Virus record (IMG/VR): IMGVR_UViG_3300044691_000305
Location: 1 to 30,172 of that record
Direction: 5' to 3' (one strand)
DNA length: 30,172 nucleotides
DNA from: a virus
Each line of letters begins with the position of its first letter. The first letter of the stretch is position 1. Shown piece after piece: positions 1 to 8,005 of the stretch. Under the pieces are notes generated by a model. It was not told the origin of the DNA and ran no database searches. It worked only from the letters and a program-made list of their open reading frames with translations. Both the position numbers and the translations under genes were made by a program.

Positions 1-16
1 CCTCGGTTCCCGCCTT
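1..16 (+). repeat. 3' end of variable repeat VR2
   Basis: The bases match template positions 577-592 except at 5, 12 and 15, which are g, g and t opposite adenines in the template. Only the end of the repeat is visible. Bases 5 and 12 carry the same g as the corresponding positions of VR1 (393 and 400). They may therefore belong to a fixed initiation (IMH-like) end rather than to the diversified part. Confidence 0.65.
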
Positions 17-100
17 TGCACGGACACGGACGCAAAAGCGATCAGGATAGCCAAAACGTTCAATGCTGAATGGAATGAATTTTTAAACCCTAAAATATAA
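1..100 (+). CDS. DGR variable protein 1, C-terminal fragment (truncated by window edge)
   Basis: This is the 3' end of a gene entering from the left, open from base 2 (ctc) to the TAA at 98-100 (33 codons). The visible peptide begins LGSRLC and ends NPKI. LGSRLC corresponds to LGSRFC in the next gene, just after its variable segment, and both proteins continue into a short polar helix. At DNA level bases 1-16 align with the 3' end of the template repeat (577-592); the three differences (5, 12, 15) all fall on template adenines. It is therefore most likely a second target of the same DGR, lying in tandem before the gene at 108. The N-terminus and the diversified codons are outside the window, so the protein's length is unknown. 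Confidence 0.75.
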   Translation, partial: LGSRLCTDTDAKAIRIAKTFNAEWNEFLNPKI

Positions 101-107
101 AAACCAA

Positions 108-485
108 ATGAAAAAAGAACTTATCAAATCCTTTGAACGTGCATGTGAGGTTACAGGCGACAACGCAACCAAACTACCTGATGTATCCTGGATGCCGGAG
201 AACCGCGGCAAAGCGATGATCGCCACATATAAAATGGAGATCATTGAAAAAGCGCAAAACATGCTTGACAAGTTTGTGCCTGATTACAGTAAAAATAACC
301 AGCGTAAATGGTATCCGTGGCATGAATGGGTTGCTTCGCGTTCCGCTTTTGTTTACACGTTCGCGCACTGCACGATCACGGGCACGGGCCTCGGTTCCCG
401 CTTTTGCTTCATTGATTCGGAAACAGCTGAGTTTATGGGCACGCAGCATGCCGATCTGTATAACGATATGATGCGGAAAAGCTAA
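108..485 (+). CDS. DGR variable protein 2 (target of the retroelement)
   Basis: This 125-aa protein is the complete target of the DGR. Residues 1-60 are helical and charged. The C-terminal half holds WYPWHEW (68-74), a constant strand VASRSAFVYT (75-84), the diversified residues 85-98, and then GSRFCF and a helix (DLYNDMM). The layout resembles the short YPWF...GSRxCF proteins common in Bacteroidota phages and the C-type-lectin-like ends of DGR targets; this is recalled, not searched. The ATG follows the upstream target's stop by seven bases, so the two are probably co-transcribed. There is no signal peptide, coiled coil or tail-attachment domain, which is unusual for a phage adhesin. Its ligand and location are unknown. 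Being a DGR target is strongly supported by the template/variable comparison. Confidence 0.88.
   Translation: MKKELIKSFERACEVTGDNATKLPDVSWMPENRGKAMIATYKMEIIEKAQNMLDKFVPDYSKNNQRKWYPWHEWVASRSAFVYTFAHCTITGTGLGSRFCFIDSETAEFMGTQHADLYNDMMRKS
330..401 (+). repeat. Variable repeat VR1
   Basis: The segment aligns without gaps to 518-589 (offset 188). Bases 330-359 are identical to the template. From 360 on there are 12 substitutions, at 360, 361, 363, 366, 370, 376, 381, 382, 387, 388, 393 and 400. Every one lies opposite an adenine in the template, and no c, g or t of the template is changed. It encodes residues 75-98 of the target. Confidence 0.93.
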
Positions 486-700
486 AAATAATAGGGCTGC
501 TTGCTGCCACTGCGGTAGTTGCTTCGCGTTCCGCTTTTGTTTACACGAACACGAACTACACGAACACGAACACGAACCTCAGTTCCCACCATGCTTGATA
601 GATATTAAGCAGTAGGGGCCTTGCCAGGATGGCAAAAAACAAACATAAAATTACAGGGCGTTGGTAGCGATAGCGAACACGACCTTAAAAGCAAAGGCTA
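486..700 (+). ncRNA. Probable DGR template RNA region
   Basis: This 215-base stretch without a credible gene lies between the second target and the reverse transcriptase. It contains the template repeat (518-589). Downstream is a small perfect hairpin at 621-635 (arms ttgcca/tggcaa, loop gga). In characterised DGRs the template is transcribed together with flanking spacer, which primes and folds for cDNA synthesis. The RNA ends here cannot be set from sequence. The tail from 590 to 700 would be the spacer. Confidence 0.6.
518..589 (+). repeat. DGR template repeat (TR)
   Basis: The repeat lies between the target stop and the reverse transcriptase, the usual DGR order. Read in the target's frame it has five AAC codons plus TAC, AGT and CAC, alternating largely with ACG. 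Nineteen of its 72 bases are adenine, and 12 of these differ in VR1. AAC codons are typical of templates because replacing the two adenines gives many residues but no stop codon. The match to VR2 extends the 3' end to about 592. The region is also an imperfect tandem of acgaac units. Confidence 0.92.
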
Positions 701-1723
701 ATGAAACGGTATAACAACCTTTATGAAAAGATATACAGCATCGAAAACCTCCGGTTAGCCGATGCTGTTGCGCGTAGAGGGAAACTGGATCAGCCGGGTA
801 TCAGAAAGCATGATGAGAACCGGGAAGCTAACCTGCTTGAGTTACAGGGGATGATCAAAAGCAAAACCTACCGTACAGGGGAATATAAGAAGTTCATTGT
901 AAAGGAGCCTAAGATCAGGGAGATATCTTGCCTTGAATACTTTCCGCACCGCATCCTACATCATGCCATTATGAATGTAATTGAACCTATACTGGTGCCG
1001 ACGTTCACCGCTGACAGTTACAGCAATATAAAGGGTAAAGGGATTGATGCAGCGTGCAATGCTTTAAAGAGAGCTTTATGTGACCTTTCAGGCACTAAGT
1101 ATTTCTTAAAGCTGGATATACAAAAGTTCTATCCGAGCATTGATCATGATATCCTGAAAAAGCTGCTGCGCAGAAAGATAAAGGATAATGATCTGCTGGA
1201 GCTGCTGGACGGGATCATAGACAGCGCATCGGGTGTTCCTATAGGTAATTACCTGAGCCAGTATTTTTCGAACCTGTATCTAACCCCGTTAGATCACTTT
1301 ATTAAAGAGCAACTGCGTGTTAAGCGCTATTACCGGTACGCAGATGACATCGTTATACTCGCTGCCGACAAACCGTACCTGCACGTTCTTCTTGGCGAGA
1401 TACGGAACTATCTAACAATTAACCTAAACCTAACCATTAAAAAAAATTACAAGGTGTGGCCGACATCTGAGGGGATTGATTTCCTCGGCAGTGTGTTTCG
1501 TCATACCCATATCAGGATGCGGAAACGCATCAAAGAAAACTTTGCAAAAGAAGTTGCAGGCCCCAACAGGCCGCAGGTTATAGCGGGTTTTATGGGATGG
1601 GCAAAACGCACGAACAGCAAACGCCTGGTAGAAAAATTAACATTATGTTCGACTTTAAAGACTTCAACATTACAACAAAAGAGAAAGGATATGAGGGAGA
1701 TAAAATTAAGACAGAGCGCTTAA
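701..1723 (+). CDS. DGR reverse transcriptase
   Basis: This 340-aa RNA-directed DNA polymerase copies the template RNA into adenine-mutated cDNA. The palm motifs are clear: LKLDIQKFYPSID (catalytic D139), IGNYLSQ (181-187), RYADDIVIL (YADD 213-216) and a thumb start with IDFLGSVF. The [ILV]GxxxSQ form in motif 4 is the DGR hallmark, where retrons and group II introns have QGxxxSP-like sequences. There is no maturase, HNH or X/thumb extension. The last 25 or so residues (from about 315) are translated from bases that also encode the next gene in another frame and look low in information, so the functional enzyme probably ends near KRLVEKL. No Avd-like gene lies between target and enzyme. Confidence 0.93.
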   Translation: MKRYNNLYEKIYSIENLRLADAVARRGKLDQPGIRKHDENREANLLELQGMIKSKTYRTGEYKKFIVKEPKIREISCLEYFPHRILHHAIMNVIEPILVPTFTADSYSNIKGKGIDAACNALKRALCDLSGTKYFLKLDIQKFYPSIDHDILKKLLRRKIKDNDLLELLDGIIDSASGVPIGNYLSQYFSNLYLTPLDHFIKEQLRVKRYYRYADDIVILAADKPYLHVLLGEIRNYLTINLNLTIKKNYKVWPTSEGIDFLGSVFRHTHIRMRKRIKENFAKEVAGPNRPQVIAGFMGWAKRTNSKRLVEKLTLCSTLKTSTLQQKRKDMREIKLRQSA

Positions 1724-1941
1724 TTGGCCGGGAAATCAAAGTGTATAAGTTTTCAATGGAAGACAGTGCAAAAGTTCCCGGCACGAAGTATCTCGCTATG
1801 CAAATTTATATCGGAGACACGCCATACGTAGTATTTACCATAGCGAAGGCATTGATCGAAGCAATACATAGAGTACCGGCTGAAAAATTCCCATTTAAAA
1901 CGACAATTATTAAAGAAAACGACTGGTTAAAATTTACATAA
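1645..1941 (+). CDS. Small conserved DGR-associated protein, overlapping the reverse transcriptase
   Basis: This protein of 98 residues starts at ATG 1645 (MFDFKDFNIT), 79 bases inside the end of the reverse transcriptase, in the -1 frame. The frame is open from 1597, but the internal ATG begins the plausible protein. It shows EGDKIKTERLIGREI, a beta-rich middle (LAMQIYIGDTPYVVFT) and PFKTTIIKENDWLKFT at the end. I recall similar sequences beside DGR-type reverse transcriptases in Bacteroidota, but know no assigned function. The alternating strands would fit a small beta-barrel of the kind that binds nucleic acid; that is inference. It could be the accessory factor that replaces Avd in this cassette. 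A frameshift fusion to the enzyme cannot be excluded, though no strong slippery heptamer was seen. Confidence 0.75.
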   Translation: MFDFKDFNITTKEKGYEGDKIKTERLIGREIKVYKFSMEDSAKVPGTKYLAMQIYIGDTPYVVFTIAKALIEAIHRVPAEKFPFKTTIIKENDWLKFT

Positions 1942-2095: not shown

Positions 2096-2572
2096 ATGGA
2101 CTTATTTGGAAATGAAGACAATTCCGCTACGTTTAGCGAATGCGGAAATTACAGATATAGCTTGTTCCGGTTTTGGGACAGGTCGAAACCCTTCGTTATT
2201 TTCATAGGGCTTAATCCATCGACCGCAAACGAGCAAACGGATGATCCTACAATCAGAAGGGTAAAGAAGCTCGCAGATGGTTGGGGGTATGGCGGTATTT
2301 GCATGATGAATCTGTTTGCCTGGGTAACTCCCTATCCGAATCAGCTTAAGCAAGTGGCTGACCCTATAGGTGAAAACGACAAGTATTTAAAAATTGCAAG
2401 CAGTCTCGGCGTTGACGTGATTTTAGCTTGGGGAAATTTTGACGTTTTCGGAAGGGATCAACAGGTTGTTAAAATGTTTCCGGAAGGCAAAGCACTTGTA
2501 ATAAACAAAAACGGCTCACCAATGCATCCGCTTTATGTTCCGACAAATGTAATTCCAATAAAATACCTATAA
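2096..2572 (+). CDS. DUF1643 family protein
   Basis: This 158-aa protein shows the family signature in order: YRYSLFRFW (about 19-27), FIGLNPSTAN (36-45), DDPTIRR (49-55), WGYGGICMMNLFAW, a P..L....DPIG segment, and VILAWGNF near the C-terminus. DUF1643 proteins are frequent in phage and plasmid accessory regions. No reaction has been firmly assigned to them as far as I know. It is full length and soluble, with no signal or membrane segment, and sits in a same-strand run of small genes upstream of the GemA-like gene. Confidence 0.85.
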   Translation: MDLFGNEDNSATFSECGNYRYSLFRFWDRSKPFVIFIGLNPSTANEQTDDPTIRRVKKLADGWGYGGICMMNLFAWVTPYPNQLKQVADPIGENDKYLKIASSLGVDVILAWGNFDVFGRDQQVVKMFPEGKALVINKNGSPMHPLYVPTNVIPIKYL

Positions 2573-2611
2573 GCAAACAGGGACTAAATCACACTAAATT
2601 CAATTTAAATT

Positions 2612-3031
2612 ATGGTAATAGGATTCAAAAAACAATTTGTAGAGCCGATACTGCAAGGCACAAAGGTTCACACTATTAGAGATGATAAAAGTAACAGGTG
2701 GAAACCAGGTATGATAATGCATATGTATACAGGAGGTAGGTTTTCAAAGGCCTATCATCAATTTACTGAGAAACGATGCGTCTCTACGCAAAATATAAAA
2801 ATATCGGTTGTCAAGGCAAGTGATGTATTAGGTGATGATGAGCATGGATATTTTATTTGTGTTAAGGTCGATGGGATTGAAATAAATACTTTCAACTTAA
2901 ATAAACTCAGCAGTTCAGATGGATTTGATATGCTTGGAGACTTTTTCGCCTGGTGGTTGCCTTTAGCAATGAAAGAACCCAACAAAACCTTTATCGGAAA
3001 AATTATTCACTGGACAGATTTTAAATATTAA
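2612..3031 (+). CDS. ASCH/PUA-like phage protein
   Basis: This 139-aa protein begins with a strand, then FVEPILQGTKVHTIRDD, WKPGMIMHMYTGGR, and ends DGFDMLGDFFAWW...FIGKIIHWTD. The set resembles ASCH-fold (PUA-superfamily) proteins: basic TIR, PG turn, an aromatic helix and a terminal G.iI.W strand. That fold usually binds RNA or modified bases. The assignment is from pattern memory. Its role here is unknown, but the neighbours suggest early or middle phage functions. Confidence 0.65.
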   Translation: MVIGFKKQFVEPILQGTKVHTIRDDKSNRWKPGMIMHMYTGGRFSKAYHQFTEKRCVSTQNIKISVVKASDVLGDDEHGYFICVKVDGIEINTFNLNKLSSSDGFDMLGDFFAWWLPLAMKEPNKTFIGKIIHWTDFKY

Positions 3032-5321: not shown

Positions 5322-6662
5322 TCATTTCTGTTGCCTTTTGTCATTTATAAACTGGATGTATTCACCGTCCGGCGTAACAAAAGAGATCTCTTTTAATTCC
5401 GGGAATACCTTGAACCTGTTTTCAGCAGCACCCTTCATTTCAGCTTCGGTAAATTTGGCATCAAGCAAAATGACTACCATGTCAGCTTGTGATGCCGCAT
5501 TAGCAATCAGTTTTTGCAATTTGCTGTAAGTAACCGGGTCGGTGGGCGTTTTCACCTCGCCGTATTCACCGTTAATAATTACATCCGGGTTCTTACCAGT
5601 TTTAGCGGCTGGCAGTAATTCATTGCGCAGTGTTTCCTCGCTCGCATGGATCACAGGCAATATGTCTACCACTATACCATGATCTGCCAGTACGCGGCCA
5701 ACGGTCATCAGGTTTTGATAATCGGGGGCATTTTCGATAGCTGTTTTTCGGTTCACCTGCAACTGGGTTCCGTCCGGTGCCTGGTATTTAATAATATACT
5801 GCTCATCCTGCGGCATATACAGCGTGGCATTATTTATCAGGTGCGGCGGTACATTGTCATAATAAGAAAGACCGTCAGGGAAAGCAATTGCCTTTTTACC
5901 AACATTGAACTTAAACATGTCAGGCACCTTCTCCGGGTATTGAATTTCATCAACAGGTGTAACTGTGCCGGTTCGCAACTGCCTGACCGTGCTGCGGCAA
6001 TTGAAATGATTGGGCGGATAGTACTTATCCCAAAAAGGATCATCAACGGGCCTCACCACTTTATTTAAAGGTCGGCAGATGGTAGAGGTACGGTCGTCGA
6101 TCACCGCGTCAAACTCAAGCAGCGGGAATGTTTTCTTTTGCTCCTGTATGGTTTGCCACTTAGCCGCCATCTGAGCGGAGCCTATAGCGGTGTCATATTC
6201 CGTTCTAAGCCAGTTCAGTTGCTCATTGGTGATGTTCTGTGCTTCCCGTTTGAACTCGTCATAACTTCTGATCTTGCCATCAGGCCCGATGAGCGCCGCG
6301 TTCATTGCCGTTAGATGTTCATGTGTCTTAGCTGCGGAGAACTGCCACACATTGTTTTGCAGGGCCACTAACGTTCTATAATCCGGGCTGTCCCAGGCAA
6401 AGTCGGCAAGGTTACCACCGTACCCTTCAGTGAGAGCCTCCTGCAACTTCGTGCCGTATGCCCTGATCAGGTTAGGGTCTGTCTCAGGCACCTGCTTGGC
6501 GTCCCATAGCTGTTTGATGAGCGCGTTGATATAGCGCTGATAATCGGGAGGTATGTCACCCGCGCTAAGGCTGACAGAATGATCATTGCAGCAGGCATGG
6601 TATATCCCGTTGAGGCGCTCACTAAATTCAGCAAAATTAAAACCACTCAGCCCGACCGGCAA
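5322..6662 (-). CDS. MuF-type minor head protein with C-terminal nuclease-like domain
   Basis: This is a 446-aa protein. Residues 160-228 carry the MuF (SPP1 gp7/Mu gpF) core: AAKWQTIQEQ, D..T...C..L (189-199), then PFWDKYYPPNHFNCR (209-223). MuF proteins sit at the portal inside the head. Residues 290-446 are an extra domain with KNPDVIINGEYGEVKTP (357-373; D360, E369, K371), followed by a helix and VVILLDAK. The D...ExK arrangement resembles PD-(D/E)xK toxins, particularly the CdiA C-terminal tRNase type. MuF proteins fused to toxin-like C-termini are known in other phages. No immunity gene is obvious next to it. The toxin function is inference; the MuF part is secure. Confidence 0.85.
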   Translation of the reverse strand: MPVGLSGFNFAEFSERLNGIYHACCNDHSVSLSAGDIPPDYQRYINALIKQLWDAKQVPETDPNLIRAYGTKLQEALTEGYGGNLADFAWDSPDYRTLVALQNNVWQFSAAKTHEHLTAMNAALIGPDGKIRSYDEFKREAQNITNEQLNWLRTEYDTAIGSAQMAAKWQTIQEQKKTFPLLEFDAVIDDRTSTICRPLNKVVRPVDDPFWDKYYPPNHFNCRSTVRQLRTGTVTPVDEIQYPEKVPDMFKFNVGKKAIAFPDGLSYYDNVPPHLINNATLYMPQDEQYIIKYQAPDGTQLQVNRKTAIENAPDYQNLMTVGRVLADHGIVVDILPVIHASEETLRNELLPAAKTGKNPDVIINGEYGEVKTPTDPVTYSKLQKLIANAASQADMVVILLDAKFTEAEMKGAAENRFKVFPELKEISFVTPDGEYIQFINDKRQQK

Positions 6663-6664
6663 TT

Positions 6665-8005
6665 TTAGCGCCGACGGGCCTTTCCAAAAAAACTGCTATT
6701 GCCAAAAAGGTCAGCTGATAAATTCGACCCGTCGGAGGACGAGGAGGATGAGGAACCTTTTACAGGTTGTGGCCTGGCTGCTGTGATCTCGATACCGAAT
6801 TTATCTTTAACCCAGGCAGGGTCTATTTCGTAATACTGTAAAGCGCCGAGTGTAATTCCCCATAAGACCTTAATATCCTCTGTGGGAACAAATTCAAACG
6901 TGATATTATCGCCTTTAAGGATGCCATGCTGCTTTAAAGCGGGAATGCTGACATTATTCCATTGCTCCTCGAGCAGGGCCATGTCGCTCTGAACGGTCAG
7001 CCACAACATCTGCTGCGCAGCTTCATCCTTTGACCTGGCTCCGTTTTTAGTATCCTGGCCGATGATCGCCCCCGAAATAAGCAGACAAAGCTCATCCCGG
7101 CACATGTCCATTAAATTCTTATACACATCGCCATTGGTAGATACGCCCTGCGCCCATTCAAAGGCTTCCGTGGTGTCGATAATAAAATAAGCAGCAGAAC
7201 CTAAGTCCTTCATCATCTGACTGGCCCTGTCAAGCTGTGTCTTATCCTGTGTATTGGTCTTCATTACACGCGGCGGGATCCCGAATATTTCGCAGAGTTC
7301 AGACCAGCAGCTTTGCGCGAAGCGTTTAAAAAGCACGTGCGGCACAGCCTTATTTAATAGGCCGAGCGGATCGCCGTTATAATACTCCAGTATCCAGGTG
7401 CCGAACTCGGGCAGTTCTCGGTACTTGATCACATCCACATAATTGTAATAATCATGGAGGAACAGCCCAGTTTGCGGCACTATATTGGTTCTCGGTAAAC
7501 TATCCCCGGTGAGCACGTTGTTACCCTCTGCATCCTTGGACATACTTAACTCAACCAGGCTATAACCGCGCTTGCGCATATTCATTTTTTCAGCGGTCAG
7601 GAATCGGTATAGCTTATGATTTTTTAATGTGGTGGTTTGATCTTCGTCTATCTCGCCGTTAACCTTGATGTTAAAGTCGAGCGAATAGATGCGGTTTTCA
7701 CGATTCTCTACCTGCGATGTCAGCAGGGCATCAATTAAAATATCGTCATAGAGGTTTTGCAGCATCCAGTTTTGAGGCTGTAAGTACCTGGCAAGGTCAA
7801 GTGCAAAGTTCCAGTCCTTAATGTCGCGCCTGATCCGGTAAACCGCTTTGTTGTCGTATGGAAGAAAGCGTTTTTTACTATCATCGCTCACAACGCCGTT
7901 GTCTGAATTGTTTTTGGCAGCCAATGTTTGCACGCTATAATCCTGTGCATAGCGATTGTTCGCGGTGGTCGTTTCGTATTTTAATTTTTTAATTTGTATG
8001 CCCAT
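6665..8005 (-). CDS. Portal protein (Mu gp29 / DUF935-like)
   Basis: The 446-aa protein lies between the gp36-like and MuF genes with a two-base gap to MuF, as expected for a portal. Features seen include DDILIDALLTSQVENRENRIY, a YRFLTAEKMNMRKRGYSLVELSM segment, VDVIKYRELPEFGTW and a long central helix region (DELCLLISGAIIGQDT). The ending is a serine-rich, disordered tail (SSSSSSDGSN) and a basic RRR. DUF935 portals of Mu-like phages have this length and arrangement. It would form the dodecameric channel for DNA packaging. Confidence 0.82.
   Translation of the reverse strand: MGIQIKKLKYETTTANNRYAQDYSVQTLAAKNNSDNGVVSDDSKKRFLPYDNKAVYRIRRDIKDWNFALDLARYLQPQNWMLQNLYDDILIDALLTSQVENRENRIYSLDFNIKVNGEIDEDQTTTLKNHKLYRFLTAEKMNMRKRGYSLVELSMSKDAEGNNVLTGDSLPRTNIVPQTGLFLHDYYNYVDVIKYRELPEFGTWILEYYNGDPLGLLNKAVPHVLFKRFAQSCWSELCEIFGIPPRVMKTNTQDKTQLDRASQMMKDLGSAAYFIIDTTEAFEWAQGVSTNGDVYKNLMDMCRDELCLLISGAIIGQDTKNGARSKDEAAQQMLWLTVQSDMALLEEQWNNVSIPALKQHGILKGDNITFEFVPTEDIKVLWGITLGALQYYEIDPAWVKDKFGIEITAARPQPVKGSSSSSSSDGSNLSADLFGNSSFFGKARRR

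Follow-up and report, generated by a model that had tools for sequence, protein, structure and literature searches.

Phage diversity-generating retroelements (DGRs) are known almost only as tail-diversifying devices, and the DGR at this locus raises the question of which proteins it diversifies and where they act. The window, the whole 30,172 nt stretch analysed (IMG/VR record IMGVR_UViG_3300044691_000305), is a contig fragment without its left end, and the DGR core sits at the left end of what remains. The reading that we favour, with a probability of roughly 0.6, is that this phage DGR is active, that it diversifies small early proteins (the phrog_11581 family) and not tail adhesins, and that these proteins probably bind variable host factors, most plausibly those of defence.

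The DGR core and its target genes

The features of the core are as follows.

1–100, + strand: end (3') of the second target gene, which lies upstream (the long paralogue, ~168 aa in relatives), stop codon at 98–100
108–485, + strand: complete DGR target gene, 125 aa (phrog_11581, E 2.5e-12; family alignment A1; model pLDDT 93)
330–401, + strand: variable repeat VR1, codons 75–98 of the 125-aa target; 12 mismatches, all at template A
518–589, + strand: template repeat (TR), non-coding, between target and reverse transcriptase (RT), in the same position in relatives
701–1723, + strand: DGR reverse transcriptase, 340 aa, with YADD and IGNYLSQ (60 viral relatives)

A sequence-only reading of the window had proposed a DGR with a VR and TR that differ at 12 of 72 nt, all at template adenines, and this was re-derived here. 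The 19 adenines of the template take all 12 mismatches and the other 53 bases none (P = 3e-9 for such confinement by chance). The two RT motifs named in the same reading, YADD and IGNYLSQ, were also confirmed, in a protein with the intact reading frame of a DGR-type RT that matched RVT_1 (4e-18) and phrog_1423 (9e-110). Approximately 16 related contigs, some near-copies of one another, have the same arrangement, with VRs that differ from the template only, or nearly only, at adenines. This recurrence in many phages rules out an assembly artefact or a chance repeat.

Two of the 12 VR1 differences, at 393 and 400, are near-fixed 3' positions. The corresponding template bases, 581 and 588, are the two 3'-most adenines of the TR and are represented by G in nearly every VR of the clade, which suggests that they are more likely marks distinguishing target from template than random mutations. 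We take them to be comparable to the IMH and IMH* of BPP-1. The same two positions bear on the fragment at 1–100, the frame of which reads LGSRLCTDTDAKAIRIAKTFNAEWNEFLNPKI followed by a stop codon (compare LGARLCTENDDYATYIGKQFIDIWNEFLNPSK in L006). It is the C-terminal end, LGSRLCTDTDAKAI...NEFLNPKI and stop, of a target that matches the long (~168 aa) paralogue of L005/L006, and the earlier identification of a second target is thus retained. The VR in this fragment is limited to bases 1–14, opposite TR 576–589 (the 3' end of its VR), and includes two A-to-G changes, both where nearly every VR of the clade has G. The fragment alone therefore does not show mutagenesis, which qualifies the claim that it carries the same signature as VR1.

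VR1 is not at the C-terminus of its target, as ~27 residues come after it. The phrog_11581 family, which has no assigned function, was matched by 19 of the 21 targets. A Pfam search of the targets gave no convincing match, the family profile found no relative in the PDB, and neither lectin nor fibre features were detected in them. When used alone as a query, the window target retrieved no relatives from viral contigs or phage records, and the family came to light only via RT neighbours and a longer paralogue. The family alignment (A1, 21 target sequences) was too divergent for a collection scan, and phrog_11581 was found in 4 of 395 genomes of the phylum, a number too small to be of use.

The RT frame overlaps the next gene (1645–1941) by 79 nt (1645–1723). 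Similarity to other RTs mostly stops near residue 316, and the last ~24 residues may therefore reflect a lost stop codon or a frameshift.

Target types, gene order and sequence variation among relatives

A search with the RT found 60 viral loci, and TR/VR pairs were identified in nearly all of them using a script that scores A-only mismatches. In the majority type a single large target ends in the VR, and the repeat is ~100–140 nt long. The ~17 loci nearest the window are of a small-target type with short repeats (~61–89 nt) and, mostly, two or three tandem targets of 120–170 aa that continue for ~21–32 residues after the VR. On the RT tree the small-target DGRs require a single change (support 83/83), a value as low as this being reached in none of 500 shuffles (mean 11.8), and this suggests that the target switch probably happened once in this RT lineage. 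No tail target was found in the window's small-target clade. Conversely, no phrog_11581 member was detectable in the records of 28 tail-target relatives, several of which are fragments. A 29th record, G436 of L110, proved to be a small-target relative whose contig keeps only the last codons of the target.

Up to five family targets were found per phage among the relatives, including remote ones, and they lie among early genes wherever the context could be read. In G400, the nearest relative and syntenic with the window, a repressor on the minus strand is followed by a 119-aa target, MuA (phrog_310), MuB (phrog_296), more early genes, a long target, a short target, the TR, the RT, the gene equivalent to 1645–1941, an ASCH gene and onward. 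The remote target therefore comes directly after the repressor and precedes the MuA transposase, and its VR differs from the TR by 12 changes at A and one other, at the last base. G399 carries two remote copies at the equivalent site, again between the repressor and MuA. In G397 the order is repressor, HTH gene, remote target, RecT and exonuclease VIII, and no MuA was found. A VR outside the family genes was not found in any of these three contigs. The earlier description of a Mu-like phage with small targets arranged in tandem, well away from the tail genes, was therefore supported, with copies in the early regions of relatives, Portal_Mu (5e-57) and Phage_Mu_F (4e-13) matches in the window (gp36 fell under its cut-off) and the MuA- and MuB-like genes of G400.

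The short target of G399 (L005 5421–5741; G399 7159–7525) has an apparent frameshift in or beside the VR, and the other copies in that contig are open. At a VR of G399 (L086, ~7601) the match to the TR reaches further 5' (87 nt) than in G400, as though retrohoming had co-converted some of the template flank. L002 and L006 (IMGVR_UViG_2840957180_000001 and _000004), two different phages that both have this type of DGR, share an IMG genome number and are apparently two prophages in one isolate.

Members of the family were also found in Bacteroides phages that have two kinds of target. In LoVEphage (MW660583), BI-TP1, Versailles and BT-TP2, one TR matches both a VR in the tail region, next to the RT, and a distant VR with no non-A mismatches over 95–98 nt. 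In all four the remote gene is a phrog_11581-family member in an early or recombination region. The BT-TP2 copy follows the repressor and HTH genes, across the origin of the record, and those of LoVEphage and Versailles are not close to the repressor and have methyltransferase and recombination genes nearby. Relatives among crAss-like phages were considered as further dual-target phages and are not counted, as the cr56_1 homologue is without a VR recognisable by eye as adenine-derived. This gene of the crAss-like phage cr56_1 (L067 2492–2899) is a short homologue of the target scaffold, and an RT lies beside a tail gene elsewhere in the phage.

Comparison of closely related copies provided evidence that family members are being diversified. 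Among six LoVEphage-group genomes the remote gene has 39 variable columns, 23 of them in the VR, and every one of these 23 is at a TR adenine. The Bacteroides prophages L068 and L069 differ at 16 of 585 nt, with 15 differences in the VR and 14 of those at template adenines. Adenine-specific VR variation, which the sequence-only reading had proposed to look for among reads from one phage population, was thus observed in these related phages, and DGR activity on family members is demonstrated in both groups at the level of sequence variation. Between G399 and G400 the scaffold outside the VR has a dN/dS of 0.017 and the VR an excess of amino-acid changes. The low scaffold value, together with VR changes at adenines, indicates proteins that are constrained and functional, with a VR that is being rewritten.

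The target scaffold, the template RNA and a candidate accessory gene

According to PMC8144416 the variable domains of DGRs are systematically C-type lectins, and the diversified product of the window had likewise been suggested to be lectin-like, with a structure prediction proposed as a check. An AlphaFold2 model of the 125-aa target (pLDDT 93) consists of two helices, a two-stranded hairpin and two further helices. The VR covers residues 75–98, and in the model the changed residues are where the second strand ends and in the loop that follows. A Foldseek search of the PDB with this model returned nothing with E < 1, and the good matches in a viral library were to uncharacterised phage proteins only. 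The lectin-type tail targets found in this RT lineage served as a control and matched 5vf4 (E 1e-6), which the phrog_11581 family does not; we take this entry to be the DGR variable protein of Thermus aquaticus. A longer Bacteroides form of the target gave a poor model (pLDDT 68) and was excluded from the fold search. As the model is confident and has no match in the PDB, the scaffold is probably not a C-type lectin, a prediction from one confident model built on a 21-sequence alignment.

A cryptic C-type lectin fold, which would make the difference from other DGR variable proteins merely apparent, is doubtful in our view. It would agree with Benler et al. 2021 (PMC8008677), who called both Quimbyvirus targets C-type lectins, and 18 columns, the last of the profile, do align weakly between the phrog_11581 targets and the lectin-type tail targets of the RT lineage. 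In dual-target phages the shared TR also makes VR peptides resemble those of lectins. Against it, the model with a pLDDT of 93 has no PDB match, the VR is followed by helices and not by a closing strand, and the lectin-type targets of the same lineage recover 5vf4 where the phrog_11581 family fails to do so. The lectin-like label was consequently not upheld. In the classical phage DGR the VR lies in a C-type lectin domain and is C-terminal in a tail or surface protein; the window target has neither a PDB relative nor a predicted fold match, extends beyond its VR, and has relatives in an early-gene context.

Two further parts of the element, an RNA structure around the TR and a gene downstream of the RT, were also conserved.

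495–507, + strand: 5' arm of an RNA stem bracketing the TR; 12 pairs with 609–620, 9 of them changed on both sides (10 phages)
609–620, + strand: 3' arm of the stem, pairing with 495–507
622–634, + strand: small conserved hairpin directly 3' of the stem; 4 pairs, 3 changed on both sides
655–685, + strand: third conserved hairpin, ahead of the RT start, with covarying pairs (columns 209–249 of A5)
1645–1941, + strand: candidate DGR accessory gene, 98 aa, phrog_19665 family, with the same family beside the RT in relatives

In the RNA structure as a whole, 19 of 25 pairs have both partners changed in one or more of ten phages, and 95.6% of cells pair. None of 500 shuffles was as good, and slid controls came nowhere near. 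As the stem brackets the TR and covaries, the TR would lie within the loop of a structured RNA. A search of the window against Rfam was negative, and scans of it for promoters and terminators did no better than chance.

The family of the gene at 1645–1941 was found beside the RT in 27 loci of the RT lineage, including an archaeal virus (BK063673). The BT-TP2 RT reading frame (L063 15930–17300) has a weak C-terminal match to it (E 3e-5) and is a possible natural fusion of the two genes. The protein had no convincing match in Pfam or the PDB; judged by eye, its pattern of strands and helices might resemble an OB fold. Avd (PF05635) was not found in the 9 records searched. Other types of DGR accessory are known, and the absence of Avd does not exclude membership of the DGRs. 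Both the candidate accessory gene and the covarying TR stem look new.

Role of the targets and comparison with known systems

The sequence-only reading had left the product as a free or capsid-decorating protein or one acting inside the host. Of these options, action inside the host is the best supported. Nothing was found in favour of capsid decoration, since the genes are in early regions and the copy of one relative is directly behind the repressor. Early expression within the host appears likely from this order, and a cytoplasmic, non-virion location is suggested by the order together with the targets having no signal peptide or membrane segment evident by eye. If so, the RT, probably aided by the 1645–1941 protein, would copy the TR RNA held in the loop of the conserved stem and misincorporate at adenines, and the cDNA would replace the VRs beside the RT and, in relatives, others several to tens of kb away. 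The products would be cytoplasmic and appear early in an infection or upon induction, each showing ~10 variable residues, at the end of a beta-strand and in the adjoining loop, on a constant and probably non-lectin scaffold. Several differently diversified copies would constitute a small repertoire. The most likely role, suggested by early intracellular expression and by precedent, would be intracellular binding to variable factors of the host, among which parts of its antiviral defence are the most plausible.

Other roles were weighed against the same evidence. That the targets diversify immunity or superinfection control, binding repressors or early proteins of competing prophages, would suit the copies near the repressor in G399, G400, G397 and BT-TP2 and the IMG genome number with two different phages of this DGR type, but the LoVEphage and Versailles copies lie elsewhere, beside methyltransferase and recombination genes, and we consider this role unlikely. 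Internal virion proteins, injected with the DNA to act in the cell at entry, would join a non-surface protein with action inside the host, and small soluble proteins can be packaged; the position in an early operon, and not with the head genes, makes this very improbable. Virion-associated or secreted binders (adhesins or decoration proteins), encoded off the tail module, would bring these phages into line with classical DGR phages, as tail or structural proteins make up most of the viral DGR targets that have an annotation (PMC8144416), and the Versailles homologue has been automatically annotated 'tail protein'. This is quite improbable given that the copies, by their gene order, fall in early, recombination or immunity regions, that lectin or fibre features were not detected, and that the four Bacteroides phages already have a separate tail-region target beside the RT in the same DGR.

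A remote non-structural target has already been noted for Quimbyvirus, as a C-type lectin near defence-related genes (Benler et al. 2021, PMC8008677). Quimbyvirus and LoVEphage appear to be of the same kind, as both match the same B. dorei prophage record. In these phages a single DGR has a VR in a presumed tail-region protein and a remote one in a gene that is presumed to be non-structural and adjoins methyltransferases and a tRNA ligase (PMC8008677). The window clade differs in that a tail target was not found, as many as five family targets are present, the VRs are ~61–89 nt, the context is Mu-like or a recombination operon, and the predicted fold is not that of a C-type lectin. In four temperate gut phages a second, distal VR outside the RT cassette, near counter-defence and methyltransferase genes, has been described with tail proteins as the primary targets (PMC12629997, 2025); the parts of that paper available to us do not describe the phrog_11581 family, the small-target clade, the accessory gene or the RNA stem. 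What appears to be new here, from the sequences compared, is that the remote targets belong to one protein family, common to a clade in which nothing else was seen to be targeted.

Among other systems, Hankyphage is also a Mu-like transposable Bacteroides phage with a DGR, and differs in its large C-lectin target (VR at residues 2188–2225) and Avd-like gene (Benler et al. 2018, PMC6199706). The Bordetella phage BPP-1 shares the TR/VR pair, A-specific mutagenesis and a DGR-type RT (PMC6199706), but has a tail-fibre lectin target, a 134-bp VR and the accessory protein Avd. The putative antigen sensors of multicellular bacteria are, according to the abstract, conflict-system proteins diversified by DGRs and thus a precedent; they are encoded by cells and not among phage early genes (PMC10907252).

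We suggest tentatively, at somewhat less than an even chance, that this DGR lineage was re-aimed from the virion surface to an intracellular, non-lectin repertoire that is among the first proteins expressed and is directed against host defence, with its own accessory protein and TR RNA. If true, targeted hypermutation would serve the intracellular arms race as well as host recognition, and the family would provide a second natural scaffold for DGR-driven diversification, together with a candidate new accessory factor and a defined RNA element. Inducible Bacteroides phages, such as BI-TP1 and the LoVEphage group, carry family members, making the question testable in laboratory strains.

Two other features of the window were observed. 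The Mu F-like head protein (5322–6662, − strand) has a C-terminal CdiA_C-type domain (PF18451, residues 356–433, E 2.5e-11), a type of domain known from contact-dependent growth inhibition. Downstream of the DGR, at 2096–3031, are DUF1643 and ASCH-like small genes, and an ASCH gene is also found near the remote target of BI-TP1.
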